Source of the DNA: Acidobacteriota bacterium
GTDB taxonomy: Bacteria; Actinomycetota; Acidimicrobiia; ATN3
Assembly: GCA_003577105.1 (NCBI GenBank)
Contig: QEUQ01000012.1
Location: 1 to 52,327 of the forward strand
Direction of reading: 5' to 3'
DNA: 52,327 nucleotides
Below are positions 618 through 14,236 of the stretch, piece by piece. Made by a program: the position numbers and the translations under genes. How positions within the stretch are numbered: position 1 is the stretch's first letter; the number at the start of each line of letters is the position of its first letter. Under the pieces are notes generated by a model. The model was not told the origin of the DNA and did no database searches. It was given only the letters and a program-made list of their open reading frames with translations.

Positions 618-1028
618 CGCAGCGCTGTCATCAAATCACGTTACCTATCATTGGCATCGGTTCGTATCGATTCGAATACTCGCGCAGCGCCTCGGATGGC
701 GCAGCGTCGCCACCGTCGAGACGAATTCGCGCGGACCACTCGCGCCAACCCCGACCGACGACGGCAGTAACGCCACCCCTGCACCGTAGTCAGTCGTCGC
801 GCGGCCATCGGCCGCCCATCATCGTCGCACACGAAGCCGGTAGGCTTTGTTGACGCAACTGCTGGGAGCGTTGACGGTGCGGACTTCCCTCATCAACCCG
901 GGAATCTATGAAACGCAACCATGCGGCCGGCCCCTCTCGCCGACCGTGGCCACTCCGGCGCGCGCCCTCGGGAGGCCAAACAGCCAAGTCGGCCAAGCCA
1001 ACCTTCGCCACGCAGGGCCCGTCGCGCT
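618..1028. other. Divergent intergenic region, no gene supported
   Basis: This 411-base stretch lies between the leftward unknown gene and hsdR and presumably holds both promoters. Short open frames exist on both strands, but they are arginine-rich, lack ribosome sites and look like chance frames. I see no clear palindrome or -10/-35 pair that I would defend. Confidence 0.4.
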
Positions 1029-3878
1029 GTGACACCGCAAGACGAGCGCGACTACCTTCATCCAGAGCAGAAGGCTCGCAAGCGCATCGACGAAATGCTC
1101 ATGGCTGCCGGCTGGATAGTCCAGGACTACAAAGCCGTCAACCTCTACGCGGGAACGGGCGTAGCCGTTCGTGAGCTCATCACCAGTGCCGGCCCGGCCG
1201 ACTACGTGCTCTTCGTGAACCGGCGGGCGGTCGGAGTAATCGAGGCCAAGAAGAAGGGGACAACGCTTTCGGGCGTCGAGTGGCAGACCATCAAGTATCA
1301 GACGAACGTGCCAGACGAACTGTCTGCATTCCTCGTCGACAGGAAGCGCGACGACGGCTCGACAATTCGTTGCGTGTCGTACGCATACGAATCAACCGGT
1401 GACGAGACCTGGTTCACATGCCACAGCGACCCCGAACCTACCGCCCGGCAGGTGCACTGGTTCCACCGTCCCGAGACCTTCGAGAGCCAGATCGCCGATG
1501 CAGAAAAGGGCGTCGGCGGCACACTTCGCGCCCGCATTCCCGCCCTGCCCGCACTGACCCACGATCCTGGCCGGTTGCGTGATGCGCAGTTCGTGGCGAT
1601 CACCAATTTGGAGCGATCGCTGAAGCACAACCATCCCCGAGCACTGATCCAGATGGCTCCCGGAAGCGGCAAGACCTTTGCCGCGGCCAATATCTGCGAG
1701 CGCCTGATCGCTCACAGCCAGGCCAAGCGCATCCTCTTCCTCGTCGACAGAGCCAACCTTGGCCGCCAAACCCTCAAAGAGTTCCAGGGATTCGAGGTCT
1801 CCGGCTCGGGCCGGAAGTTCACCGAGCTCTACAACGTCCAGCACCTGACACACAACAAGGTCGACCCCGTCGCGAGTGTTTGCATCGGCACGATTCAGCG
1901 CGTCTTCTCAATGCTGCGCGGCGAGGCCGAGTTGCCCGACGACCTAGACGAGGAGTCTGCCTACGAGATCGGCCCCAGTCGGCCCGTCGAAGTCGACTAC
2001 AACTCAGAGCTGCCGATTGAGGCGTTCGATGTGATCATCATCGATGAGTGCCACCGCTCGATCTACGGCGTTTGGCGCCAGGTGCTCGAGTACTTCGATG
2101 CATTCCTCATCGGCCTCACCGCGACACCGGGCAAGCAGACCTTCGGATTCTTCAACAAGAACTTGGTCATGGAGTATGGATTCCCCCAGGCCGTCGCAGA
2201 CGGGGTGAACGTCGATTTCGACGTGTTCCGGCTATCCACCGCGATCAGTGAGTCTGGCTCGACTATCGAGGCCGGGTATTGGACGACCTTTAGAGATCGC
2301 GAGACCCGCGACGAGAGACTTGAACAGGTCGACGAAGACCTCGCCTACGACGAAAATGATCTCGACAAGAAGGTGGTCGCCAAAGATCAGATCCGCACGA
2401 TCATCCGAGCGATTCGCGACAACCTGCCGGCGATGTTCCCCGACCGCGACCTTGACGATGACGCCCGGCTGCGCCACATCCCCAAGACGTTGATCTTTGC
2501 GAAGGATGACAGCCACGCCGAAGACATTGTGCGCATCGCCCGCGAGGAGCTCGGCAAGGGCAACGACGTGGTCGCCAAGATCACATACCGCTCGTCTGAG
2601 GGCGGCTCGAAACCAGAGGATCTCCTGCAAGCCTTCCGCACCAGCTACTACCCACGCATTGCTGTGACAGTCGACATGATCGCGACGGGTACCGACGTGA
2701 AGCCCATCGAGATGGTCGTCTTCATGCGGATGGTGCGATCTCGCAACTTCTTCGAACAGATGAAGGGGAGGGGAGTGCGCACCATTTCTGATAGCGACCT
2801 CCAGGTGGTCACCCCCGATGCCGCGCACAAAGACCGCTTCGTGCTCGTCGATGCGGTCGGCGTCACCGAAACGAAGCTAATCGAGACGACCCCCCTCGAA
2901 CGCAAGCGAGGTGTGCCACTCGACAAGCTCTTGCACCAGGTCGCGCTCGGCCAAGTGAGCGAGGATCTCGTATCGACGCTTGCATCACGCCTCGCCCGCA
3001 TTGAGAGCCGCATTGGCGCTGGCGAGCGCGAGAGGCTCGAAGCGATCGCCGGGCAATCACTCAAGTCGATCGAGCACGGACTCATCGAAGCAATCGATCC
3101 CGACCGACAGCTCGCCGCAGCACGGGCGACGAGCGGAACTGAAGACCCAACCGACGCACAGATTGATGAGGCCAAGGCAGTGATGTTCGCCGAGGCCGTC
3201 ATGCCGATTGCTGCCAACCCCGAGCTTCGCGAAGCACTGGTGGACGTGCAGCGAAGTTTCGACCAGGTGATCGACGAGATCAGCATGGATGAGATCACCC
3301 GAGCCGAGTTCGCCGTTGACGCCCGTGCCCGCGCGGCCGAGTACGTTGAGTCGTTCAAGGCCTTTCTCGACGAGCACAAGGATGAGATCACTGCCCTCCA
3401 GGTGCTCTATGGCCGGCCGTACTCGAAGCGCCTTACTTATGAGGATGTGAAGGAATTAGCCGAAGCCATTGGGCGCCCGCCGCACCCATGGACCCCCGAG
3501 CGGTTATGGGAGGCATATGAGACCCTCGACGCATCGAAGGTTCGTGGGTCGGCCGGTACGGTGTTGACCAACATCGTCTCGCTCGTGCGTTTCACGCTAG
3601 GCGATGAAGACGAGCTTGCTCCGTTTCCGGAACAGGTCAACGAGCGGTTCGAGGCTTGGATCATTCAGCAAGAGAGCGCGGGCCGAGCGTTCTCGGATGA
3701 AGAACTCGAATGGCTGTACTTGATACGTGACCACCTGGCGGCATCGTTGTCGATCGAGTCACGGGAGTTGCTTGACCCGCCCTTCAGCCAGCACGGCGGC
3801 CTGGGCCGTGCGAAGGAGTTGTTCGGGCCGGGCCTTAACGAACTATTGGATGAGCTCGGTGAGGTCACGGCAGCGTGA
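1029..3878 (+). CDS. hsdR: Type I restriction enzyme, R (endonuclease/translocase) subunit
   Basis: This is the motor and nuclease subunit of a type I restriction-modification complex; it translocates DNA with ATP and cuts unmethylated DNA. From a GTG at 1029 the protein is 949 residues. The N-terminal nuclease has D58 followed by E72-A-K74 (PD-(D/E)xK type). The helicase core has Walker A PGSGKT near residue 212, the DECH box at 339 and the QMKGRG motif VI at 577; the C-terminal third matches the helical EcoEI-type R domain. The frame stays open back to 921, but the residues before 1029 are arginine/proline-rich and unlike the family, whose members begin close to a PEQKAR-like motif, so GTG 1029 is preferred. 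Its TGA overlaps the GTG of hsdS by 4 bases. Confidence 0.93.
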   Translation: MTPQDERDYLHPEQKARKRIDEMLMAAGWIVQDYKAVNLYAGTGVAVRELITSAGPADYVLFVNRRAVGVIEAKKKGTTLSGVEWQTIKYQTNVPDELSAFLVDRKRDDGSTIRCVSYAYESTGDETWFTCHSDPEPTARQVHWFHRPETFESQIADAEKGVGGTLRARIPALPALTHDPGRLRDAQFVAITNLERSLKHNHPRALIQMAPGSGKTFAAANICERLIAHSQAKRILFLVDRANLGRQTLKEFQGFEVSGSGRKFTELYNVQHLTHNKVDPVASVCIGTIQRVFSMLRGEAELPDDLDEESAYEIGPSRPVEVDYNSELPIEAFDVIIIDECHRSIYGVWRQVLEYFDAFLIGLTATPGKQTFGFFNKNLVMEYGFPQAVADGVNVDFDVFRLSTAISESGSTIEAGYWTTFRDRETRDERLEQVDEDLAYDENDLDKKVVAKDQIRTIIRAIRDNLPAMFPDRDLDDDARLRHIPKTLIFAKDDSHAEDIVRIAREELGKGNDVVAKITYRSSEGGSKPEDLLQAFRTSYYPRIAVTVDMIATGTDVKPIEMVVFMRMVRSRNFFEQMKGRGVRTISDSDLQVVTPDAAHKDRFVLVDAVGVTETKLIETTPLERKRGVPLDKLLHQVALGQVSEDLVSTLASRLARIESRIGAGERERLEAIAGQSLKSIEHGLIEAIDPDRQLAAARATSGTEDPTDAQIDEAKAVMFAEAVMPIAANPELREALVDVQRSFDQVIDEISMDEITRAEFAVDARARAAEYVESFKAFLDEHKDEITALQVLYGRPYSKRLTYEDVKELAEAIGRPPHPWTPERLWEAYETLDASKVRGSAGTVLTNIVSLVRFTLGDEDELAPFPEQVNERFEAWIIQQESAGRAFSDEELEWLYLIRDHLAASLSIESRELLDPPFSQHGGLGRAKELFGPGLNELLDELGEVTAA

Positions 3879-5182
3879 GCGATCTGCCATCCGGATGGGC
3901 GTGGACGACTCTTGGCGACGTCAGTCGCAAGCCCCAGTATGGCTGGACCTCAAAGTCGAACCCGGAATCAGCCGGGCTTCCGTACCTGCGGACCACAGAC
4001 ATCACCAAGGGGCCGATCGACTGGGGGCAGGTCCCAAAATGTGTCGAAACACCAGCTGACCTTCATCGCTTCCTCTTGCAGCCCGGGGACATCGTTGTCT
4101 CACGCGCCGGGTCAGTGGGTGTGAGTGCGCTCATTCAGCGACCACCACCAGCCATCTTCGCGTCGTATCTGATTCGCCTTCAGGTGATCGCCCCCATGAG
4201 TGCTGCCTATGTGGCGCACTTCCTCCAGAGCTCCGGCTATTGGCGCCAGGTATCTGACGCCAAGGTCGGAATCGCGGTTCAGAACGTCAGCGCGAAGAAG
4301 CTTGCAGCGATCGCGCTTCCTGTACCGCCGCTGGCGGAGCAGGAGCGGATCGTCGCTGCGATTGAGGAGCACTTCTCCCACCTCGACGCCGCCGACGCAT
4401 CACTTCGATCTGCCGAGACTAGGCTGGGGCTGGTGACTTCCAGGGCCGTGGACGTGGCCTTCCTGTCGCTCGACAAGCGTGTGCCTGTCGGTGAAATCGC
4501 GGACGTCCGCGGCGGGATCCAGAAGCAGCCCAAGCGAAAGCCGAAGGACAACGCGGCACCCTTCCTCCGCGTGGCGAACGTTGGCCACGGCCGAATGGAC
4601 CTCCGAGATGTGCACGAGATTGAGCTGTTCGACGGTGAGCTGGAACGCTGCCGCCTCCAGGCCGGCGACCTCTTGGTTGTTGAGGGGAATGGGAGCCCGG
4701 ACCAGATTGGTCGGTCAGCGGTTTGGCAAGGCGAGATCGACGACTGCGTTCACCAGAACCATCTGATCCGCGTGCGACCAGGTCCGCAGCTCGATCCTGA
4801 GTTCCTCGGTCTCTACTGGAACGCCCCATCCACCCGCGCACAGCTGACGGCAGTCGCCAGCAGTACCAGCGGCCTTCACACGCTGAGCACCGCGAAGGTC
4901 AAGCGCATCGAAGTCCCCGCAGCGCCTATAGACCGGCAGAAGGCCATCGTTGCTCACCTCACCGTGCAGATCGCGGCGTTCGCCCGTCTCCGGGCATCGC
5001 TTCGACTGGCTACTGAACGCCAGTCGAACCTGCGACACGCCATCCTTGCTGCCGCTTTCTCGGGCAAGCTCGTCCCACAAGATCCAGATGACGAACCGGC
5101 TTCGGTTCTGCTCGATCGCATCCGAGAGGAGCGAGCGGCCGCGACGCCCAAGAAGCGCGCGCGCAGCGCGGCCGCAACGTGA
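3875..5182 (+). CDS. hsdS: Type I restriction enzyme, S (specificity) subunit
   Basis: This subunit recognises the two halves of the bipartite DNA target for both HsdM and HsdR. It has 435 residues, the usual size. It shows the twofold pattern of the family: a first target-recognition domain from LPSGWAWTTLGDV, a conserved spacer (VPPLAEQERIVAAIEEHF, about residues 148-166), a second recognition domain starting at GEIADVRGGI, and a C-terminal spacer with AILAAAFSGKLV. The GTG start overlaps the hsdR stop, which implies translational coupling. A type I operon usually places hsdM next to hsdS; here two unrelated genes come between them. Confidence 0.92.
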   Translation: MSDLPSGWAWTTLGDVSRKPQYGWTSKSNPESAGLPYLRTTDITKGPIDWGQVPKCVETPADLHRFLLQPGDIVVSRAGSVGVSALIQRPPPAIFASYLIRLQVIAPMSAAYVAHFLQSSGYWRQVSDAKVGIAVQNVSAKKLAAIALPVPPLAEQERIVAAIEEHFSHLDAADASLRSAETRLGLVTSRAVDVAFLSLDKRVPVGEIADVRGGIQKQPKRKPKDNAAPFLRVANVGHGRMDLRDVHEIELFDGELERCRLQAGDLLVVEGNGSPDQIGRSAVWQGEIDDCVHQNHLIRVRPGPQLDPEFLGLYWNAPSTRAQLTAVASSTSGLHTLSTAKVKRIEVPAAPIDRQKAIVAHLTVQIAAFARLRASLRLATERQSNLRHAILAAAFSGKLVPQDPDDEPASVLLDRIREERAAATPKKRARSAAAT

Positions 5183-5241
5183 GCCGCGCGGTTCTGTCGT
5201 ACCCCTTGCGTATTGTCTGTGGCGATGCATGGGGAGGCCAG

Positions 5242-6165
5242 ATGCGCGAGTGGAGCCCACATTCATACGAGAAGATCTCGATCTTCAGTGACTACTTGCA
5301 ACAGTTCGCCGTTGCCGCGGGGTCGGCGACAAACCGCGTCTACATTGACGCATTCGGCGGCGACACGGTGAACGTCTTGCGGGGCAGTGGTAGGACCTTT
5401 GCGGGCTCGGCAGAAATCGCGCTCGCGATCGAACCACCCTTCAGCCACCTTCGGTTCTTTGAACTCAAGGCGGGCCGCGCTGCAGCATTGCGGCGTCTCA
5501 TCGCATCTGATCCGAGGCGCGCGTCGGTGATCGAGGGTGACTGCAACTCCACAATGGCAGGGGTCCTTGCCGGCTTGCCGGTGCAAGCACCGACATTCGC
5601 ATTCCTCGATCCAGACGGCATGGAGCTGAACTGGTCGACTATCCGCATGCTGGCCGATCACAAGCGTCGCTATGCCAACGAGACCGGCAAGAGCAAAGTC
5701 GAAATGTGGGTTCTCTTCTCCAGTGCCGGAATCGTGAGAGTGCTAGGGTCGAACAGGCAGCTCGCGCTAGAGAAGGGATTCCCGGAAAAGATCGCTCGGC
5801 TCTACGGGGCCTGGGGCCCCTGGGAACGGGTCTGGGAGGCCAAGCTTGACGGTGAGATAAGCGGTGGCGATGCGAAGAAGGCCTACTTATTCTTGTACAT
5901 GGACAGACTCGCATCCCTGGGGTATCGGCACCTGCTTGTCCGGCCAATTGAGAATTCGCGCAACGAGCTATTTGCCATGGTCTTCGTCACTGACCATCCG
6001 GCCGGCGCCTCGATCATGAAGTGGGCCGTCGAGCGCGACCGGGCGATTCCCGAACCTGGAACGCTTTTCGATGCTGTGGAGTCTCGTCCGCCATACGAAG
6101 ATCTACACACCGGTTGGCGCGAGAGTTTTCCGATTGAGTTGCCGGAGTGGGAGGAGCTTGGGTGA
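5242..6165 (+). CDS. tcmP: Three-Cys-motif partner protein TcmP
   Basis: This matches my memory of the TcmP family (conserved start REWSPHSYEK and the DPDG region), proteins found next to a three-cysteine protein of the Gp37/Gp68 type, which is indeed the next gene. The pattern V-Y-I-D-A-F-G-G (near residue 30), an acidic residue in FFELK, GDCN and FLDPDG suggests a Rossmann fold of the SAM-methyltransferase kind; that is inference, and the biochemical role of the family is unknown to me. I chose ATG 5242 because GGGGAGG stands 4 bases upstream and family members start this way. A longer frame begins at GTG 5179 and would overlap hsdS by 4 bases. Confidence 0.8.
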   Translation: MREWSPHSYEKISIFSDYLQQFAVAAGSATNRVYIDAFGGDTVNVLRGSGRTFAGSAEIALAIEPPFSHLRFFELKAGRAAALRRLIASDPRRASVIEGDCNSTMAGVLAGLPVQAPTFAFLDPDGMELNWSTIRMLADHKRRYANETGKSKVEMWVLFSSAGIVRVLGSNRQLALEKGFPEKIARLYGAWGPWERVWEAKLDGEISGGDAKKAYLFLYMDRLASLGYRHLLVRPIENSRNELFAMVFVTDHPAGASIMKWAVERDRAIPEPGTLFDAVESRPPYEDLHTGWRESFPIELPEWEELG

Positions 6166-6186
6166 GATCAGGATTAAGCGCGAGGC

Positions 6187-6954
6187 ATGTCCGTGGCTGA
6201 CTCGTCGATCGAGTGGACCGACGCCACTTGGAATCCAACGACGGGGTGCAACCGCATATCGCCGGGTTGCGATTCTTGCTACGCGCTGAAGATGAGTGCG
6301 CGGCTGAAGGCGATGGGGCAGGAGAAGTACCAAAACGACGGAGACCCGAAGACGAGTGGTCCCGGCTTCAAGCTGACCGTTCATCCCGAAACGCTGACGC
6401 TGCCTCTCTCGTGGGTTCGCCCGAGAATGATCTTCGTTAACTCGATGAGCGACTTGTTCCATCGCGACGTTCCGGTCACCTTCATTCGCGATGTGTTTCA
6501 AGTCATGCGTGCCACGCCGCAGCACAGCTACCAGGTGTTGACAAAGCGATCGAGACGTCTCGCGAGACTTGCCGATCAGCTTGACTGGCCAGCCAACCTC
6601 TGGATGGGCGTATCTGTCGAATCGCAGCGATACACGTTTCGCGTCGATCACTTGCGAAGCGTGCCATCGACTGTGCGTTTCCTTTCTGCCGAGCCATTGC
6701 TCGGGCCAGTCATCCTCGACCTCGATGGAATCGACTGGGTCATTGCCGGTGGAGAGAGCGGCGCGGGCGCCCGGCCCGTCGAAGGAGCCTGGCTCCGAAG
6801 CCTACGTGACCAATGTGGCCAATCGGGAACACCATTCTTCTTCAAGCAGTGGGGCGGTCGTTCGCCGAAGTCCGGTGGGCGTCGCATCGACGGGCGAACA
6901 TGGGATCAGTACCCCGCCGTCGCGAGGCCGTTGGCCGCGGGAGTCGCATCATGA
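6187..6954 (+). CDS. Phage Gp37/Gp68-like three-cysteine protein (DUF5131-type)
   Basis: A 255-residue protein beginning MSVADSSIEWTDATWNPTTG, the family signature. Cysteines 21, 28 and 31 form C-x6-C-x2-C, a three-cysteine cluster fit to bind metal or an iron-sulfur centre; it differs from the usual radical-SAM CxxxCxxC spacing. Further conserved-looking blocks are VNSMSDLFH, LTKRSRR, GVSVESQ, SAEPLLG and the C-terminal FFKQWGG. The family was first named from mycobacteriophage genes and is found with TcmP; the reaction is unknown. It sits 21 bases after tcmP, and its stop overlaps the hsdM start (ATGA), so it is almost surely co-expressed with the methylase. Confidence 0.85.
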   Translation: MSVADSSIEWTDATWNPTTGCNRISPGCDSCYALKMSARLKAMGQEKYQNDGDPKTSGPGFKLTVHPETLTLPLSWVRPRMIFVNSMSDLFHRDVPVTFIRDVFQVMRATPQHSYQVLTKRSRRLARLADQLDWPANLWMGVSVESQRYTFRVDHLRSVPSTVRFLSAEPLLGPVILDLDGIDWVIAGGESGAGARPVEGAWLRSLRDQCGQSGTPFFFKQWGGRSPKSGGRRIDGRTWDQYPAVARPLAAGVAS

Positions 6955-8435
6955 GTGGCGCCAAGGCGATCGTCGACAAGCTCTGGAACTACTGCCACAT
7001 CTTGCGCGATGACGGCTTGTCGTATGGCGACTATCTCGAGCAACTCACGTACTTGCTCTTTCTGAAGATGGCAGAGGAGCAGCGCCAACTAGGTCTTGAT
7101 CGCATTGTGCCCGAGCGCTTCGACTGGCCTTCGTTACTCAACAAGAAAGGCGAGGTACTCGAAGCTCACTACATTGCAATCCTCAATCAGCTCGGCGGTA
7201 CTGATGACTTGCTGGGAGTGGTGTTCCGCAAGGCACAGAATCGCATCCAAGATCCGGCGAAACTCGAGCGCCTCATCAAAGACCTGATTGGTAGCGAGCA
7301 GTGGATGTCGCTCGACGCTGATGTCAAAGGGGACGCCTACGAAGGATTGCTGGAGAAGAACGCGGCCGACACAAAGACCGGAGCGGGCCAGTACTTCACG
7401 CCCCGGGCGCTCATCTCAGCGATGGTCGACGTGATGCAGCCTGCGCCGAACATGCGAATCTGTGATCCGGCGTGTGGCACCGGAGGCTTCTTCCTTGCGG
7501 CGTTCGATTACATCGTTCGTCACAATCCAAACTTGGATCCCGATCAGAAGCGCCACATCCGCTCAGGGTTGTTCACGGGCTGGGAGATAGTCGACAACAC
7601 AGCCCGGCTGTGCGCGATGAATCTGTTGTTGCACGGGATTGAGAGCCCGGAGTCCGACAGCCCCATTCACGTTGATGACGCGTTGAGGGCCGATCCGGGC
7701 GAGCGCTTCGACATGGTGCTGACCAATGCGCCGTTCGGCAAGAAGTCATCGGTCACGATCGTCAATGGTGAGGGCAAGGCCGAGAAGCAGAGTCTGACCG
7801 TGGTGCGAGACGACTTCTGGGCGTCGACGTCGAACAAGCAGCTGAACTTCTTGCAGCACGTCAAGACGCTGCTGAAAGTCGAGGGCAGCGCGGCAGTTGT
7901 CGTGCCCGACAATGTGCTATTTGAGGGTGGAGCCGGTGAGACGATTCGCCGCAGGCTGCTTCACGAGTGCGACGTACATACGCTGCTGCGCTTGCCGACG
8001 GGGATCTTTTATGCCCAGGGCGTAAAGGCAAACGTGCTCTTCTTCGACCGCAAGCCCGGCTCCGACACACCCTGGACGAAAGAGCTGTGGTTCTACGACC
8101 TGCGAACGAACATGCACTTCACGTTGAAGACGAATCCGCTCAGACGAGCCGATCTTGACGACTTCGTTGAGTGCTACCGGCCGGGCCAGAGGGGCAAACG
8201 TAAGGAGACCGAGCGCTTCCACCGGTTCGGCTATGACGAATTGGTGGCGCGCGACAAAGCGAGCCTCGACATCTTCTGGCTGCGCGACGAGAGCCTCGAA
8301 GACACCGACAATCTTCCGCCACCTGGTGTGATTGCCGCTGAAATCGTCGAAGATCTCGAGGCGGCCCTCGCTGAATTCACCGAGTTGGCCGGGTCGCTCG
8401 AGGGCATCGCAGTGGAGGTCGAGGAAGTTGACTGA
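6951..8435 (+). CDS. hsdM: Type I restriction enzyme, M (DNA adenine methylase) subunit
   Basis: This subunit transfers a methyl group from SAM to adenine in the site chosen by HsdS. It is 494 residues from ATG 6951, which overlaps the previous stop by 4 bases; the frame is open further upstream, but the family begins with this helical N-terminal domain (IVDKLWNYCHILRDDGLSYGDY). GAGQYFTP precedes motif I, DPACGTGGFF, at residue 172. Motif IV reads NAPFG at residue 259 (AAT GCG CCG TTC) instead of the usual NPPF/NPPY. Overall length and order of motifs are normal, so I expect it to be active, but the substitution is worth noting. Confidence 0.93.
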   Translation: MSGAKAIVDKLWNYCHILRDDGLSYGDYLEQLTYLLFLKMAEEQRQLGLDRIVPERFDWPSLLNKKGEVLEAHYIAILNQLGGTDDLLGVVFRKAQNRIQDPAKLERLIKDLIGSEQWMSLDADVKGDAYEGLLEKNAADTKTGAGQYFTPRALISAMVDVMQPAPNMRICDPACGTGGFFLAAFDYIVRHNPNLDPDQKRHIRSGLFTGWEIVDNTARLCAMNLLLHGIESPESDSPIHVDDALRADPGERFDMVLTNAPFGKKSSVTIVNGEGKAEKQSLTVVRDDFWASTSNKQLNFLQHVKTLLKVEGSAAVVVPDNVLFEGGAGETIRRRLLHECDVHTLLRLPTGIFYAQGVKANVLFFDRKPGSDTPWTKELWFYDLRTNMHFTLKTNPLRRADLDDFVECYRPGQRGKRKETERFHRFGYDELVARDKASLDIFWLRDESLEDTDNLPPPGVIAAEIVEDLEAALAEFTELAGSLEGIAVEVEEVD

Positions 8436-8489: not shown

Positions 8490-11400
8490 GTGGATTATCC
8501 GGTTATCGACAGGATCCGACGCCTCAATGAACAGGACGCTGTGCGACTTGCCCAGGCCTTGATCTTTGGCGAGGTGGGTCGCCTCGCCTTGAAAATCGAC
8601 GGATTCTCGATGTCGGGGCGAACCAAGGCGAAGGACCAAGGGATCGACGGACGGACATCGTTTCCGCTCGGCTGCAAGACGCCTCTTCCTCGAGGTCAGT
8701 GCGTTTGGCAAGTGAAGAGCGGTGTATCCGCTCGGAAAGCCGCTGACGAGTTTGCCGAGAAACACGTTGCTCTCCGGAAGGCGATTAGCGCAGGCGCTGA
8801 CTACGTGCTGTTCTGGACTCAGGACCCCAGCGATACCGCGCGTAAATCGCTCGAGTCCGACTTCCGAGCCCACATTGAACGCATTAGATCCGACGCGGCA
8901 ATCACGTTCTTATACGCGGAGCAGATCGAAGCGCTGTGCTGGCAGGTGCCGGCGACTCTTGCTCAAGTCCTGGAAGTACCGCTCGGTGGGCTCGTCTCTC
9001 TTCAGAAGTGGGGAGTGGGCATAGGGCTATCGGCTGAATTCAATGCAGACCCAGCGCGAAGCGATCTAATCGAGTCAATCAGGGGACATATCAGGAGAAG
9101 TCAGTCATCGGGGAGCGCTTTGCACCTTGTCGGTGACACGGGAGTCGGGAAGAGTCGACTGGTGTTCGAGGCACTGTCGCGCGCCGGAATTGAAGAACGT
9201 GTGCTTGTCGGCGCGGGTCCTGAGGCCGTTGACACCGCTCTTCTTGCGGAAATCGTTCAGCGCGGCAACGCCTCGGTAGTTCTAGTCGTTGACGACTGCG
9301 ATTCCGACGGTAGGAACCGGATTCAGCGTTATGTGGACATGGCGTCAGGAAGGATCAGGCTGGTGACCGTAGGCCCGCGGCTGTACCGCGAGCGGCCGTC
9401 TGACGGGAGTCCATATCAAGAGGTACTTCCAGTCTCGACTGATGTTGCCGCGGAGATAGCGAGAGCCGTCGGGCTCGGCGAGCAAGACGCATCGAGGGTT
9501 GCGCACCTTGCGGAAGGTTACCCCGGCTTGGCTCACATCCTCGCGACGGCGATGGCTCGTGGCGACGATCGTAGTGAAGTGGCCGATCTGGTGCGCACGA
9601 ACCCCGAACTTCGTCAGGTTCTTGACCAGCTCATCCCTTCCAACACCGATAGGCAACTGCTTGGAGTACTGGCGCTCTTCGATAAGCTCGGTTTCGAAGG
9701 GGACCTCGCGGGGGAGGTGACTGTCGCGTGTCAACTACTCGGGGTTGACGAGAACGCGCTTCGCGGCGTTGTAGATCGCGAAACCGGGCGATTCGTGTCG
9801 GCCGCGGGACGCTACCGTCAAGTCACGCCGCGCCTGTTGGCAGTATCAATGGCGACTGGGTTCCTCGCCGAGAACAATGCGCGTTTCATGCAGGCACTCG
9901 AGGGAATGCCGCAAACACTCCGCGACAGGATCCTGCACCAGATGACGACTTTTGCTGGCGATCGGGCTGCTGCGGAAATTTTCGCCGAGCTATTGGTGGC
10001 ACCCCCTTTTGATAGCGGCGTTCTTGCCGACCTCGACGCGGGGAATGCGAGCGTACTGCCTCTCGGTGCTGTCGTGGCGTCGAGCGCGACGATGGATGCT
10101 ATCGATCGCCTTCTAGCACGTGGGACAAGTGGCGCAGTGCGGGAGTTTCGGCTGGGGCGGCGCGACATGGTCTGGGCGCTCGGGCTTCTCGCGTGGGATG
10201 AGGAGCATTTTGAGCGCGCGGCTGACGCGCTTCTCAAATTGGCTATTGGCGAGAACGAAACCTGGGGAAACAATGCGACTGGACTGCTGAAGGGATTATT
10301 TCTGGTTCATCTCGGCGGTACGGCAGCACCGTTCCAGCTGAGGCTCGCATGGGCACGTCGCGCGCTGGAGACCCGCGATGGCGAGGCCGTCTCCGTCCTG
10401 ATCGAGGCGCTTGGAAATGCGTTGACAATTCACGAGTCTCGTATGTCGGCAGACTTTGGCGAACGTCGCGAGCCAGTAGAATGGCGGCCTCCTTCGGTCG
10501 CCGACGAAATCGAAGCGCGTCGCGGCGCGTGGAAGTTGCTGATTTCGATTGCGCGTAATCCTGAACACCGTAGTCAGGTAGCCACAGCGCTGGCAGCCGG
10601 ACTCTTTGGGGCTGTCCGTCGCGGTCTCGCCGAAGAGATTGTGACCGACCTACCAAGCATTCCGTGGGGCGATCGCGAGAGGGCCGAGCTCGGGAAAGCG
10701 ATTGCTCATTTGTCGGAATCGTCTCGGTCAGAGGATCCGGGGCCCAAGTTGCAGGCTCTCCACTCGCAGTTCATCGGCGAGACGCTTGATCAGCGACTGG
10801 CATACGTTCTGTCGCTATCGCCATGGGATCTCGCTGGGAACAGGCAGGAGCAGTTGAGCGGCGAACCATCGGTGATCGGAGAGCTGGCACGCGATCTCGA
10901 TGACGCAGGATTAGGCCAAATCGTGTTTGCTGCCGAGCGATCGATATCGGGGGATCCGCGGACGTCATTCGCACTCTTTGAGATGCTTGCTCGTATGCGC
11001 GGGAGCGTGGCGGCCTTCGATGCACTTCAGGCCCTTCGTCCTGTTCCCGAGGCGGCAGTACTGGGAATGCTTCGCGGTTTGTCTCGTGAGCTACCGGAGG
11101 ACTGGTCCGTGGGCGTACTCTCAGGCTGGATCGAGTCGCCAGACCTCGGGGTATTGGTCGTTCGGGCGGCTCATGTCCTTCCGGCCTCGCCTGCCATCGC
11201 GAGCCTGGCACTTGAAGCGGTTCGGAGAGGTACTGTCGATTCTGCGGAGCTCGGCAGGTTCCTATTTGGGGGGTGGGCGCGGCAGCTCCCAGCCGGAGAC
11301 GTCGCCGCCATCCTGGCCGAGCTCGCCTCTGCTCACACCGCCGTCGCGACGGAGCAAGCCCTGGGAATCCTGGAGCAGTGGGCTGACGCACGACCTGACA

Positions 11401-12089
11401 CGGAGGTGCCTGATGAACTGGGAGGTGTTGGGCGCCAATTGCTTGACCAGACGACAGGGCTCGGCCGGCACGATCGCGGAATGATTTCGCTATACCGAGG
11501 GAAACTTGTTCCGCGCTTGCGCATGACGTTCAGTGACCGCCTCGATCTGTTTCTCGAGTTGCTTCGGGGAATGGAATCTTTCCTGACCGACGATGATCTG
11601 ACGATTCTTGATGCGCTCGCATCCGAGAGGCCGAAGGAGACGGTCGAAACACTCGTTGCGCTGGCTGCGGCGCCGAACGAGTTGTCGCTTGGATACATGG
11701 AGCACTCCAAGATTCTCTCGAGGCTTCGCGCGATTGCAGGCACTGAGATACTCGGGGAGTCGATTGCAGAACTGCCCCGCGACGCGTTACCGCGACTGGT
11801 GGGCCACATTGACTTCTCTGGCGACGAACCTGATCCACTCATCGGGCTACTGATCGAAATGGATGGCACGGGCGTGCGAGTCCAAGCGACGACGGAATTC
11901 TTATACCCGGAGCACGGCTGGACAGGTTTGGAATCCGTACACTTCGAAGAGCGGCGCGCGGTGGTCGATCATTGGATGGCGATTGCAGGTATCAGCGCGC
12001 CGTTCCAGGAGTGGCTGACAGACCTTGCGTCGGACTTGGACGAAAGAATTGCCTCAGCGCGAAACGCGGAGGTGGAGCGAGGGCGTTGA
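8490..12089 (+). CDS. Mrr-like nuclease / STAND-type NTPase fusion, candidate defence protein
   Basis: A 1199-residue protein from GTG 8490, 54 bases after hsdM on the same strand. Residues 1 to about 160 look like a restriction-endonuclease fold of the Mrr type: D53 in GIDGRT, then Q74-V-K76 in VWQVKSG, and a final strand/helix with YVLFWT. Residues about 185-400 hold a P-loop NTPase with Walker A GDTGVGKS (215-222) and Walker B VVLVVDD (D268, D269), resembling STAND ATPases. From about 400 to the end I see only alpha-helical, leucine/alanine-rich segments that may be repeats serving as a sensor. Nuclease head, STAND switch and large helical sensor is the layout of Avs-type antiphage proteins; I cannot place it in a named family. 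The function is inferred from layout and neighbours. Confidence 0.75.
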   Translation: MDYPVIDRIRRLNEQDAVRLAQALIFGEVGRLALKIDGFSMSGRTKAKDQGIDGRTSFPLGCKTPLPRGQCVWQVKSGVSARKAADEFAEKHVALRKAISAGADYVLFWTQDPSDTARKSLESDFRAHIERIRSDAAITFLYAEQIEALCWQVPATLAQVLEVPLGGLVSLQKWGVGIGLSAEFNADPARSDLIESIRGHIRRSQSSGSALHLVGDTGVGKSRLVFEALSRAGIEERVLVGAGPEAVDTALLAEIVQRGNASVVLVVDDCDSDGRNRIQRYVDMASGRIRLVTVGPRLYRERPSDGSPYQEVLPVSTDVAAEIARAVGLGEQDASRVAHLAEGYPGLAHILATAMARGDDRSEVADLVRTNPELRQVLDQLIPSNTDRQLLGVLALFDKLGFEGDLAGEVTVACQLLGVDENALRGVVDRETGRFVSAAGRYRQVTPRLLAVSMATGFLAENNARFMQALEGMPQTLRDRILHQMTTFAGDRAAAEIFAELLVAPPFDSGVLADLDAGNASVLPLGAVVASSATMDAIDRLLARGTSGAVREFRLGRRDMVWALGLLAWDEEHFERAADALLKLAIGENETWGNNATGLLKGLFLVHLGGTAAPFQLRLAWARRALETRDGEAVSVLIEALGNALTIHESRMSADFGERREPVEWRPPSVADEIEARRGAWKLLISIARNPEHRSQVATALAAGLFGAVRRGLAEEIVTDLPSIPWGDRERAELGKAIAHLSESSRSEDPGPKLQALHSQFIGETLDQRLAYVLSLSPWDLAGNRQEQLSGEPSVIGELARDLDDAGLGQIVFAAERSISGDPRTSFALFEMLARMRGSVAAFDALQALRPVPEAAVLGMLRGLSRELPEDWSVGVLSGWIESPDLGVLVVRAAHVLPASPAIASLALEAVRRGTVDSAELGRFLFGGWARQLPAGDVAAILAELASAHTAVATEQALGILEQWADARPDTEVPDELGGVGRQLLDQTTGLGRHDRGMISLYRGKLVPRLRMTFSDRLDLFLELLRGMESFLTDDDLTILDALASERPKETVETLVALAAAPNELSLGYMEHSKILSRLRAIAGTEILGESIAELPRDALPRLVGHIDFSGDEPDPLIGLLIEMDGTGVRVQATTEFLYPEHGWTGLESVHFEERRAVVDHWMAIAGISAPFQEWLTDLASDLDERIASARNAEVERGR

Positions 12090-12275
12090 CGAATTTTGGG
12101 CCGAGGTGATTCGAGCGAACTTCGGCAGCGGATCGAGTGTCAAACATTTGTCAAACGAACCGGGCGAAACGGGGCCGGATTCGGGCGGACTCGGAGAAGG
12201 CAGCGAGCGGTTGAATCGTCCGTGACCAGCCCATACGCGCATCCATCCGCACCACCCTGAACCACTCGGTCAAAC
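12090..12275. other. Spacer at island boundary
   Basis: No gene is supported here. A short direct repeat TGTCAAAC occurs twice 10 bases apart around 12138-12156. The stretch leads into the tRNA-like fragment and may be the outer end of an integrated element. Confidence 0.3.
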
Positions 12276-12319
12276 TCATAACCCGAAGGTCGTTGGTTCA
12301 AATCCAACCCCCGCTACGA
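12276..12319 (+). other. 3' half of a tRNA-Met(CAU)-like sequence, probable attachment-site remnant
   Basis: The sequence reads as anticodon loop CTCATAA, then the 3' anticodon stem, a variable loop, a T arm with perfect 5-bp stem GTTGG/CCAAC around loop TTCAAAT, and a 3' acceptor strand CCCCGCT. The 5' half is missing: the bases before the loop cannot pair with CCCGA, and no GTAGCGGGG-like start is found upstream. A tRNA 3' half of this kind is the usual attachment-site duplicate left by integrative elements using tyrosine recombinases. It is followed 13 bases later by a terminator hairpin, as after a real tRNA gene. Confidence 0.7.
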
Positions 12320-12361: not shown

Positions 12362-13212
12362 CTTGTCTCGGGAGCCCGGTCTCGATTCGCGTCGAGGCGT
12401 TCGAGGAACTTCGCCACGGCGATGACGGCGTCGTTGACGACGACATCCCAATCTAGACCGGGGTATATCTCGAGCACGGTCTCCGCGTACGCCAGTGGAC
12501 CTTGCGCCAGGGGAGTGGCAAAGTTGTCGGCCAGGTCGCCAAGGGCCGTGCGCGTAGCTCCGATTAGTTCTGAGCCAAACATGCTCCTCACGCAATCGCC
12601 CGCAGCCGCGGGCCCGCCCTCGTCGTTGTGCAGCAATACAAACGCGACGTCATACCAGTCTTTGGTAGCTCGCCGACCGTACGCAGCATGGATCTTTGCG
12701 AGAAGGAACCCGGCGAGACGAGCCACAGGTAGCTCGACGGTGACCATCGCACCATCGACAACGCTCGAGAATTCCCGCTCCTCCCAGTCGCGACCAACAA
12801 GACCAGTTCCCCGCAGATTGACGGCGCCGAGGTCGTTGCACTGGTCGAACTTGATTGTTGCGCTGCCGGGCGCATCGTCGATATCCGCGAGGAACTCGGC
12901 ACTGACAGCACTTGCCGGCTCGCATTGGGTGTGCCATCGCCAAGCGCGCTAGCTGTCCGCCGAAAACCCTGAGGCGCGTAGGGCCGTTTCAAGGCGCGCG
13001 ACGTTGGGTGATCCGTCGTAGATCTCCAGATTGACCTGAAGATCGATATCGGTTGTACCGATGTGCAGCATCTGAGATCGCGTGCACAACAGATCTGGAA
13101 CCAGTCCACCGAGCAGCACGAATCGTGGGTTCGTTCCGTAGGCCGCGACAAGTCGGACGAGCGCCTCCTGAGCGAGCTCGCGTGCCCTGCGGCTACGCGG
13201 AAGCTCCGACAT
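12343..13212 (-). pseudogene. abiEii: AbiEii-type nucleotidyltransferase toxin, interrupted by an in-frame TAG
   Basis: The N-terminal part starts MSELPRSRRARELAQ and has the nucleotidyltransferase core FVLLGGLVPD and GTTDIDLQV; it stops at a TAG (12949-12951) after GFSADS. Reading through in the same frame gives RAWRWHTQ, then DDAPGSATIKFDQ, and the typical C-terminal block KIHAAYGRRATKDWYDV to a natural stop at 12343. So one point mutation (for example CAG to TAG) splits an otherwise complete 289-codon gene. AbiEii toxins act as nucleotidyltransferases and pair with AbiEi antitoxins. The start overlaps the end of abiEi by 20 bases. Either toxin activity is lost or the TAG is read through. 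Confidence 0.75.
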
Positions 13213-14236
13213 GCAGTACCTCCTTGAGATGGTTCGCAGCCTCAGCAAACCGGCCACCCTTGGCAAGTAGATCGGCATAGACGCGCGCGGAAGACGCGCA
13301 GCGGATATCGCCAATCTGAGTACCCGCGACTGAAGTGATGCGACTGGGAAGCGGGCGAACTTCGATTCGATGCCCCCGCTCGACGACACGAGCATCGATC
13401 GTGTCGGCCAAGGCTAGCGGGTCGTCGAACACTTCGCGACCCAAATAAAGCTCCAGGACCGATACGTTTGACAGGTAAGGCGCGAGCAGCACAGATGCCG
13501 CGCCGGCAGTCACGGCCCAGTCGACCCCCGACCTATTCAGTGCTGGCGCAATTTCGCTACCAAGCGAGTCGATTGGGTCTCGCCACAGGCGATGCATCAG
13601 CACAACCGGGGCCTTGGCCTCCTGAACTGCGACCGCATGCGAGTAGTTATCGAGAAGCGCATTGGCATCGGCTACACGACGAGCCGAGCCTGGCCCGCGT
13701 GCAACGTCGTGCTGCAACAAGCCGAGTTCTTCGAGGTAGGCGAGCGCCTTGGCTGTAGCGCCGCGCGATAGCCCCGCGGCGTGTTGAATCGACGCGACGC
13801 GCGGCTCGACTCCGCTAAGGGCTGCTTCTGCCACGGCGATTGTTGATGCCGACCAACTCGCTTTCGAGCCTTCTGAAACCGAAGGTTTGGCGTCGCGAAC
13901 GACGACGAGGCCGCTCAAGATGGCAATGTTTGCCCGGCCGCGCTCGTCAACCCATCCAATTCCGTGGTCGCTCAGCCATTCGCGCGCACCCGTAGAAAGG
14001 TCGTGAGCGAGTACAACGTCGATCTTGCCTGCGAGCATCGCGAGGCGCTTGACATCGGCCGGCCAGCCCTCACCTGCCCAGCCCGTGACGAACCGATGGG
14101 GGCTGCCGGTTGTGCGAACAGTGACCGAAAACGTTCTGGCCAGCGGGTCAAGCTGGTCGACGTCGATCTTGCATCCAGGTGGCAGGGCGGCAATGAGGGC
14201 AGCCCGGATGCGCGTCTGTGGGCTGCGACGCGACAT
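13193..14236 (-). CDS. abiEi: AbiEi-type antitoxin / transcriptional repressor (type IV TA)
   Basis: A 347-residue protein upstream of, and overlapping, the AbiEii-type gene. A central region (about residues 150-190: VASIQHAAGLSRGATAKALAYLEELGLL) reads as a winged helix-turn-helix, followed by the C-terminal antitoxin part ending KEVLHVG. The N-terminal part (ending GWVDERGRANI) is an extra domain seen in longer members. AbiEi antitoxins are known to repress their own operon by binding inverted repeats; a palindrome lies 18 bases before the start. GGAGG sits 4 bases before the ATG. The antitoxin frame is intact although its toxin is broken. Confidence 0.7.
   Translation of the reverse strand: MSRRSPQTRIRAALIAALPPGCKIDVDQLDPLARTFSVTVRTTGSPHRFVTGWAGEGWPADVKRLAMLAGKIDVVLAHDLSTGAREWLSDHGIGWVDERGRANIAILSGLVVVRDAKPSVSEGSKASWSASTIAVAEAALSGVEPRVASIQHAAGLSRGATAKALAYLEELGLLQHDVARGPGSARRVADANALLDNYSHAVAVQEAKAPVVLMHRLWRDPIDSLGSEIAPALNRSGVDWAVTAGAASVLLAPYLSNVSVLELYLGREVFDDPLALADTIDARVVERGHRIEVRPLPSRITSVAGTQIGDIRCASSARVYADLLAKGGRFAEAANHLKEVLHVGASA

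Follow-up and report, generated by a model that had tools for sequence, protein, structure and literature searches.

A probable anti-phage protein of the PD-λ-4 A family with a putative N-terminal nuclease and a STAND NTPase module

The gene and its surroundings

The window (the whole stretch of 52,327 nucleotides that we analyzed) contains an intact open reading frame at 8490-12089 on the + strand, with a GTG start at 8490 and a stop codon at 12087-12089. It encodes an effector-STAND-sensor protein of 1199 amino acids, a homologue of PD-λ-4 A, which is part of an anti-phage system of E. coli. An in-frame TGA lies immediately 5' of the GTG. The alignment with the closest relative (39% identity over 1-1196) begins at residue 1 of that relative, which supports this start. 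The reverse strand of the region is rich in stop codons, and the gene is present as a single copy in the genome.

Upstream is a type I restriction-modification (R-M) operon (921-8435, + strand), which ends 54 bp before the gene. It comprises hsdR (921-3878), hsdS (3875-5182), a tcmP-like gene (5179-6165), a DUF5131 radical-SAM-like gene (6187-6954), and hsdM (6813-8435), all on the + strand. The tcmP-like and DUF5131 genes (together 5179-6954, + strand) sit between hsdS and hsdM and match the PADLOC candidates PDC-M41A/B.

Just downstream of the gene is the 3' half of a tRNA-Met (12274-12317, + strand), with a CAT anticodon and an intact T-arm. A search of the assembly with up to 3 mismatches found no further copy of this fragment. 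It is a candidate remnant of an attachment site at the right end of a defense cluster. Further on, at 12949-14236 on the - strand, a gene for an AbiEi-like antitoxin (Pfam AbiEi_2) overlaps a short open reading frame that ends early and has, by eye, a nucleotidyltransferase-like GG...D.D motif; this is possibly a broken AbiE pair.

The closest relative of the window protein is similar over its full length (39–41% identity, aligned from residue 1) and is encoded on four identical IMG/VR contigs (L129 to L132). There, a complete tRNA-Met and a gene for a phage-type integrase lie in the same stretch; the tRNA-Met region matches Rhodococcus plasmids and the integrase matches a Mycobacterium plasmid. 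In contrast to the window gene, this relative does not adjoin a type I R-M operon within the stretch that was read, and a gene with an AbiJ domain adjoins it downstream instead. Within the class that the window belongs to, 4 of 395 genomes (counting the window's own) had matches to this relative.

Domain anatomy of the protein

The original prediction was of a nuclease, a STAND module, and a large helical C-terminus, in that order, and it proposed structure prediction and fold comparison as a check. Alignments of relatives, a full-length AF2 model (mean pLDDT of 86.2, with an alignment of 52 rows as the input), and Foldseek all support this anatomy; the folds that were matched include the STAND module and HEAT/importin-like repeats.

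The N-terminal domain (residues 1–160; 8490-8969) is the putative Mrr-like nuclease of the PD-(D/E)xK type. It includes the motif D49-x-G-x-D53 ... Q74-x-K76 (8634-8717). Across 52 nuclease-type proteins, which are only 16–24% identical to the window protein, the invariant columns are D49, G51, D53, Q74, and K76, along with G220, K221, and R223 from the NTPase. These 52 rows were picked by the presence of D53, Q74, and K76 (D49 and G51 played no part in the choice), so a fairer test of those three residues is given by the 75 full-length rows that were not selected this way. Among these, D53 is present in 63/75 and Q74 and K76 in 62/75 each; the remainder carry a different N-terminal domain. 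The D53...Q74-x-K76 pattern that had been read as Mrr-like catalysis is thus conserved, and it is also kept in PD-λ-4 A from E. coli.

In the AF2 model, the N-terminus is arranged as alpha (14–31), beta (54–58), beta (69–76), alpha, beta (104–109), alpha (115–132), and beta (138–141). D53 lies just ahead of the first core strand and Q74-x-K76 is on the second strand. A model of the isolated domain agrees in topology with the full-protein model. Using Foldseek, the isolated domain had weak matches to the PD-(D/E)xK nucleases Mus81-Eme1, Avs4, NucS, and Can2 (best E = 0.12), and a Pfam scan of the window protein did not match Mrr or any other nuclease model. So the predicted topology fits the PD-(D/E)xK fold that was originally proposed, while the fold matches are weak and the Pfam model for Mrr is unmatched. 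Taking the motif conservation, the topology, and the weak fold matches together, the N-terminal domain is likely, though not proven, to be a PD-(D/E)xK nuclease.

We also considered that the protein might be a STAND regulator whose N-terminus is a degenerate nuclease, which would bind nucleic acid or protein without cutting and would act in transcription control or in the maintenance of a mobile element. The nuclease families and folds give no significant match, one clade of relatives has an additional N-terminal helix-turn-helix (MqsA/HTH_31), and bacterial transcription regulators do exist among the STAND proteins (PMC7159879). However, D49, D53, Q74, and K76 are kept in the nuclease-type rows at around 20% identity, which points to catalysis. 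Furthermore, the E. coli homologue belongs to an anti-phage system (PMC9519451). We judge the regulator to be very unlikely.

The core of the STAND NTPase spans residues 186–325 (9045-9464). Both Walker motifs that were originally proposed hold up. Walker A is GDTGVGKS (residues 215–222; 9132-9155), and its K221 is invariant, as is R223 (each 75/75 full-length rows). Walker B is VVLVVDDC (residues 263–270; 9276-9299), with D268 in 65/75 rows and C270 in 72/75. Pfam gave only a weak match to AAA_16. In the AF2 model, a P-loop NTPase is followed by a winged helix, and the rest is all-helical to the C-terminus. The helical lid and the winged-helix-like part occupy residues 326–447 (9465-9830) and include a beta-hairpin at 436–445; PADLOC's PD-Lambda-4_A model matches across this part (residues 192–680).

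The last 750 or so amino acids (residues 448–1199; 9831-12086) are helical repeats in the model, and Foldseek relates them to importins and other HEAT-type repeat proteins. They include a family signature that is evident in the alignment, ENETWGNNATG (residues 588–598; 10251-10283). For the whole model, the best Foldseek matches by E-value were human SAMD9 (3e-7), PH0952 (a STAND protein from an archaeon), importins and further helical-repeat proteins, Apaf-1, CED-4, and NRC3; condensin HEAT-like and karyopherin/HEAT-like repeats were also among the matches. TM-scores for the whole model were low (0.1–0.5), so the resemblance of these proteins to the window protein is confined to the STAND module and the overall layout. 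From the viral library, the top match was a phage protein annotated as Novel STAND NTPase 3 (E = 1.2e-3). A sequence search of solved structures with the window protein alone found no match, and the same search with a profile of the family gave only sub-threshold matches to NLRs (NRC1) and Apaf-1.

Conservation is not even along the protein. It is highest in the nuclease domain (1.85 bits) and in a helical block at 561–720 (1.84 bits) and lowest at 721–1060 (1.22–1.26 bits). This variable region is a candidate for the sensing surface.

Homology to PD-λ-4 A and replacement of the effector

The window protein was originally described as not recognizable as a member of a named family, and this turned out to be incorrect. 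The window protein matches PADLOC's PD-Lambda-4_A model (PDLC03991) over residues 192–680 only (E = 3e-25), and all ten proteins of our first alignment match this model as well. The E. coli gene matches PDLC03991 over 1–1283 (2524 bits), with PD-λ-4_B adjoining it. (DNA similar to this E. coli gene is found in 175 of 5426 complete genomes.) E. coli PD-λ-4 A can be aligned from end to end with a profile of the window family (profile positions 5–1255, 630 bits). Although the window protein and E. coli PD-λ-4 A are just ~14% identical over the alignment, E28, D49, G51, D53, Q74, K76, E87, K221, R223, and D268 are all kept. The original suggestion of a new sensor-effector protein was partly borne out: the layout is that of a sensor-effector, and as a homologue of a known defense protein it is not a new kind, though it is very divergent and lacks the B gene.

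A PADLOC scan of the open reading frames downstream of the window gene found no PD-λ-4_B. When E. coli PD-λ-4_B was compared by tblastn to the window and to the relatives' loci that had been collected by then, only the E. coli locus matched, so we rejected PD-λ-4_B as a general partner. Its absence from the window and from the other relatives tested implies that the A protein normally stands alone. Should PD-λ-4_B be essential, the window protein may function differently from the E. coli system.

Another idea was that the protein is a member of a defined Avs type (Avs1 to Avs4) that the profiles overlooked. The effector-STAND-sensor layout is indeed the same, as the original prediction had pointed out and as the alignments, AF2, and Foldseek agree, and Avs4 was the third-ranked PDB match for the N-terminal model (E = 0.39). 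However, a profile search, which had been proposed along with the analogy, found no PADLOC model for Avs that matched the window protein at E-values up to 0.1. No solved Avs structure was among the best 50 fold matches for the whole protein, and PADLOC assigned the window protein and all the relatives tested to PD-Lambda-4_A. We give hardly any weight to membership in an Avs type.

Our collection of relatives came to about 90 and covers archaea as well as many bacterial phyla. A tblastn search of plasmids yielded 16 of these. A scan of a genome collection with the window protein as the single query found no relative, while a scan with a four-row alignment identified 80 loci, which are from Pseudomonadota, Bacteroidota, Cyanobacteriota, Chloroflexota, Nitrospirota, Poribacteria, Bacillota, and several archaea. 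No relative was found in phage records.

Of the 75 full-length rows, 13 lack the nuclease motif and still align in the STAND and helical parts (because the scan patterns include some of that motif, the proportion of proteins with a nuclease is not an unbiased frequency). The N-terminus is replaced by an α/β-hydrolase in 5 proteins (two of these were scanned and matched PGAP1, DUF676, or Abhydrolase models, and the other three were assigned by their similar N-termini), by a calcineurin-like phosphoesterase in 1, and by what we will call the IFYSWQ domain in 7, all from Bacteroidetes. The IFYSWQ domain is possibly TIR-like: Pfam's TIR model matched one sequence with E = 0.029, and there was no match in the PDB. 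Effector types cluster on the tree, with 3 changes versus a mean of 12.7 after shuffling. (The tree was built with a quick method, and the window protein is on a long branch with its exact position unsure.) This swapping of effectors on a shared STAND-helical body fits an Avs- or NLR-like protein with a sensor, a switch, and an effector.

We also noticed two oddities of architecture. The clade that includes L033, L098, and their kin has its extra helix-turn-helix ahead of the nuclease, which suggests self-regulation or DNA binding. And at four loci (L008, L011, L069, and L084), the protein is split into two open reading frames, at differing places; these overlap in L011 and L069. The splits may be due to decay, assembly errors, or frameshifting.

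The relatives' neighborhoods are rich in defense genes. The relatives' immediate neighbors (139 proteins) matched 215 PADLOC models versus 5 for genes over 5 kb away (101 proteins), where these counts are of models rather than proteins and are inflated by the models for HsdS. Fic-family genes adjoin several relatives (at 5048-6121 of L016, 56-1231 of L135, and 11303-11476 of L014), and SoFic accounts for 3/139 immediate neighbors. In two relatives from Phaeobacter and haloarchaeal plasmids, a rhomboid protease gene is directly downstream on the opposite strand (L010, 11835-12416, and L011, 11821-12516, both on the - strand). We rejected the rhomboid protease as a partner, as tblastn found no similar gene near other relatives.

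The position of the window gene, 54 bp behind a complete type I R-M operon, raises the question of whether the protein is a restriction-type nuclease. It would be driven by nucleotides, would act on unmodified or modified DNA, and would aid or back up the R-M system, with helical repeats that bind DNA instead of a phage protein. A type I hsdR likewise lies upstream of a relative on a cyanobacterial plasmid, HsdS recurs among the immediate neighbors (3/139), and the fold matches to karyopherin/HEAT-like and condensin HEAT-like repeats could be read in the same way. Also, most of the DNase-type systems in PMC9519451 are noted as giving direct immunity. But most relatives do not have an adjacent R-M operon, and R-M subunits are a minority of neighbors. 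No helicase family was matched. And elsewhere the same body carries a hydrolase or a phosphoesterase, which would be ill-suited to a body dedicated to DNA recognition. We consider the restriction-type nuclease unlikely.

Proposed role and comparison with known systems

The gene product is very likely an anti-phage alarm protein. More specifically, we think it is probably a single-gene immune protein that belongs to the PD-λ-4 A family, is built like Avs or NLR proteins, and goes from sensing to a STAND switch to DNA cutting. In favor of this reading are the homology to a protein of a defensive system, the conserved residues of both the nuclease and the NTPase, the exchange of effectors, and the defense genes nearby. 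In the resting state, the protein would be held off in a nucleotide-bound STAND form. The helical-repeat C-terminus would sense, within the cell, a phage component or another signal of infection. The STAND module would then exchange its nucleotide and so let copies of the protein oligomerize, which would gather and activate the N-terminal PD-(D/E)xK domains, and DNA would be cut. The cutting might be abortive, with both phage and host DNA destroyed, or just the invader might be degraded. An abortive step is not assured, because 7 of the 11 DNA-binding or DNA-cleaving systems reported in PMC9519451 conferred direct immunity and did not act by abortive infection.

PD-λ-4 came out of a functional selection in E. 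coli in which every system was confirmed to lower phage plating (PMC9519451). PD-λ-4 has been placed under the P-loop NTPases and not under the PD-(D/E)xK nucleases (PMC10952713). In the accessible literature, we found no mechanism for the PD-λ-4 family. What our analysis appears to add to that literature is the N-terminal nuclease of PD-λ-4 A, its usual occurrence as a stand-alone gene, and the swapping of its effectors. With the nuclease placed, A usually occurring without B, and lineages that swap the nuclease, PD-λ-4 becomes a testable effector-switch-sensor system. Our analysis singles out D53, K76, and K221 and the region 721–1060, and homologues with other effectors are available for comparison. 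The analysis would also add another widespread NLR-like family to bacterial and archaeal immunity.

To a broader proposal we give slightly less than even weight. The family might be a large and ancient group of stand-alone, NLR-like prokaryotic immune receptors, distinct from Avs and distributed among archaea and many bacterial phyla, in which a single conserved STAND-helical body is joined to interchangeable effectors (nuclease, α/β-hydrolase, phosphoesterase, and possibly TIR-like). The two-gene PD-λ-4 of E. coli would then be a version with an accessory gene, and the feature of the phage that is sensed would differ from those sensed by Avs.

Among known systems, PD-λ-4 from E. coli (Vassallo et al. 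2022) is homologous to the window protein over its full length, has the same domain order, and keeps the active-site residues, and both PD-λ-4 A and the window's relatives are found in defense or mobile regions. The E. coli system differs by its B gene and by its low identity to the window protein. STAND immune proteins in general have a tripartite design with variable N-terminal effectors, and Avs proteins have nuclease effectors whose activators are phage terminase, portal, or Ksap1 (PMC12931631). Like Avs1 to Avs4 (AVAST), the window protein has a predicted N-terminal nuclease, a central STAND NTPase, and a long C-terminal repeat region as the putative sensor. Unlike them, its repeats resemble HEAT/karyopherin repeats rather than being clearly TPRs, and it matches no Avs profile. 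SAMD9, Apaf-1, CED-4, and NRC2/3 share with the window protein a P-loop STAND module and, after it, helical repeats, while the effectors of SAMD9 and of the plant and animal NLRs are different.
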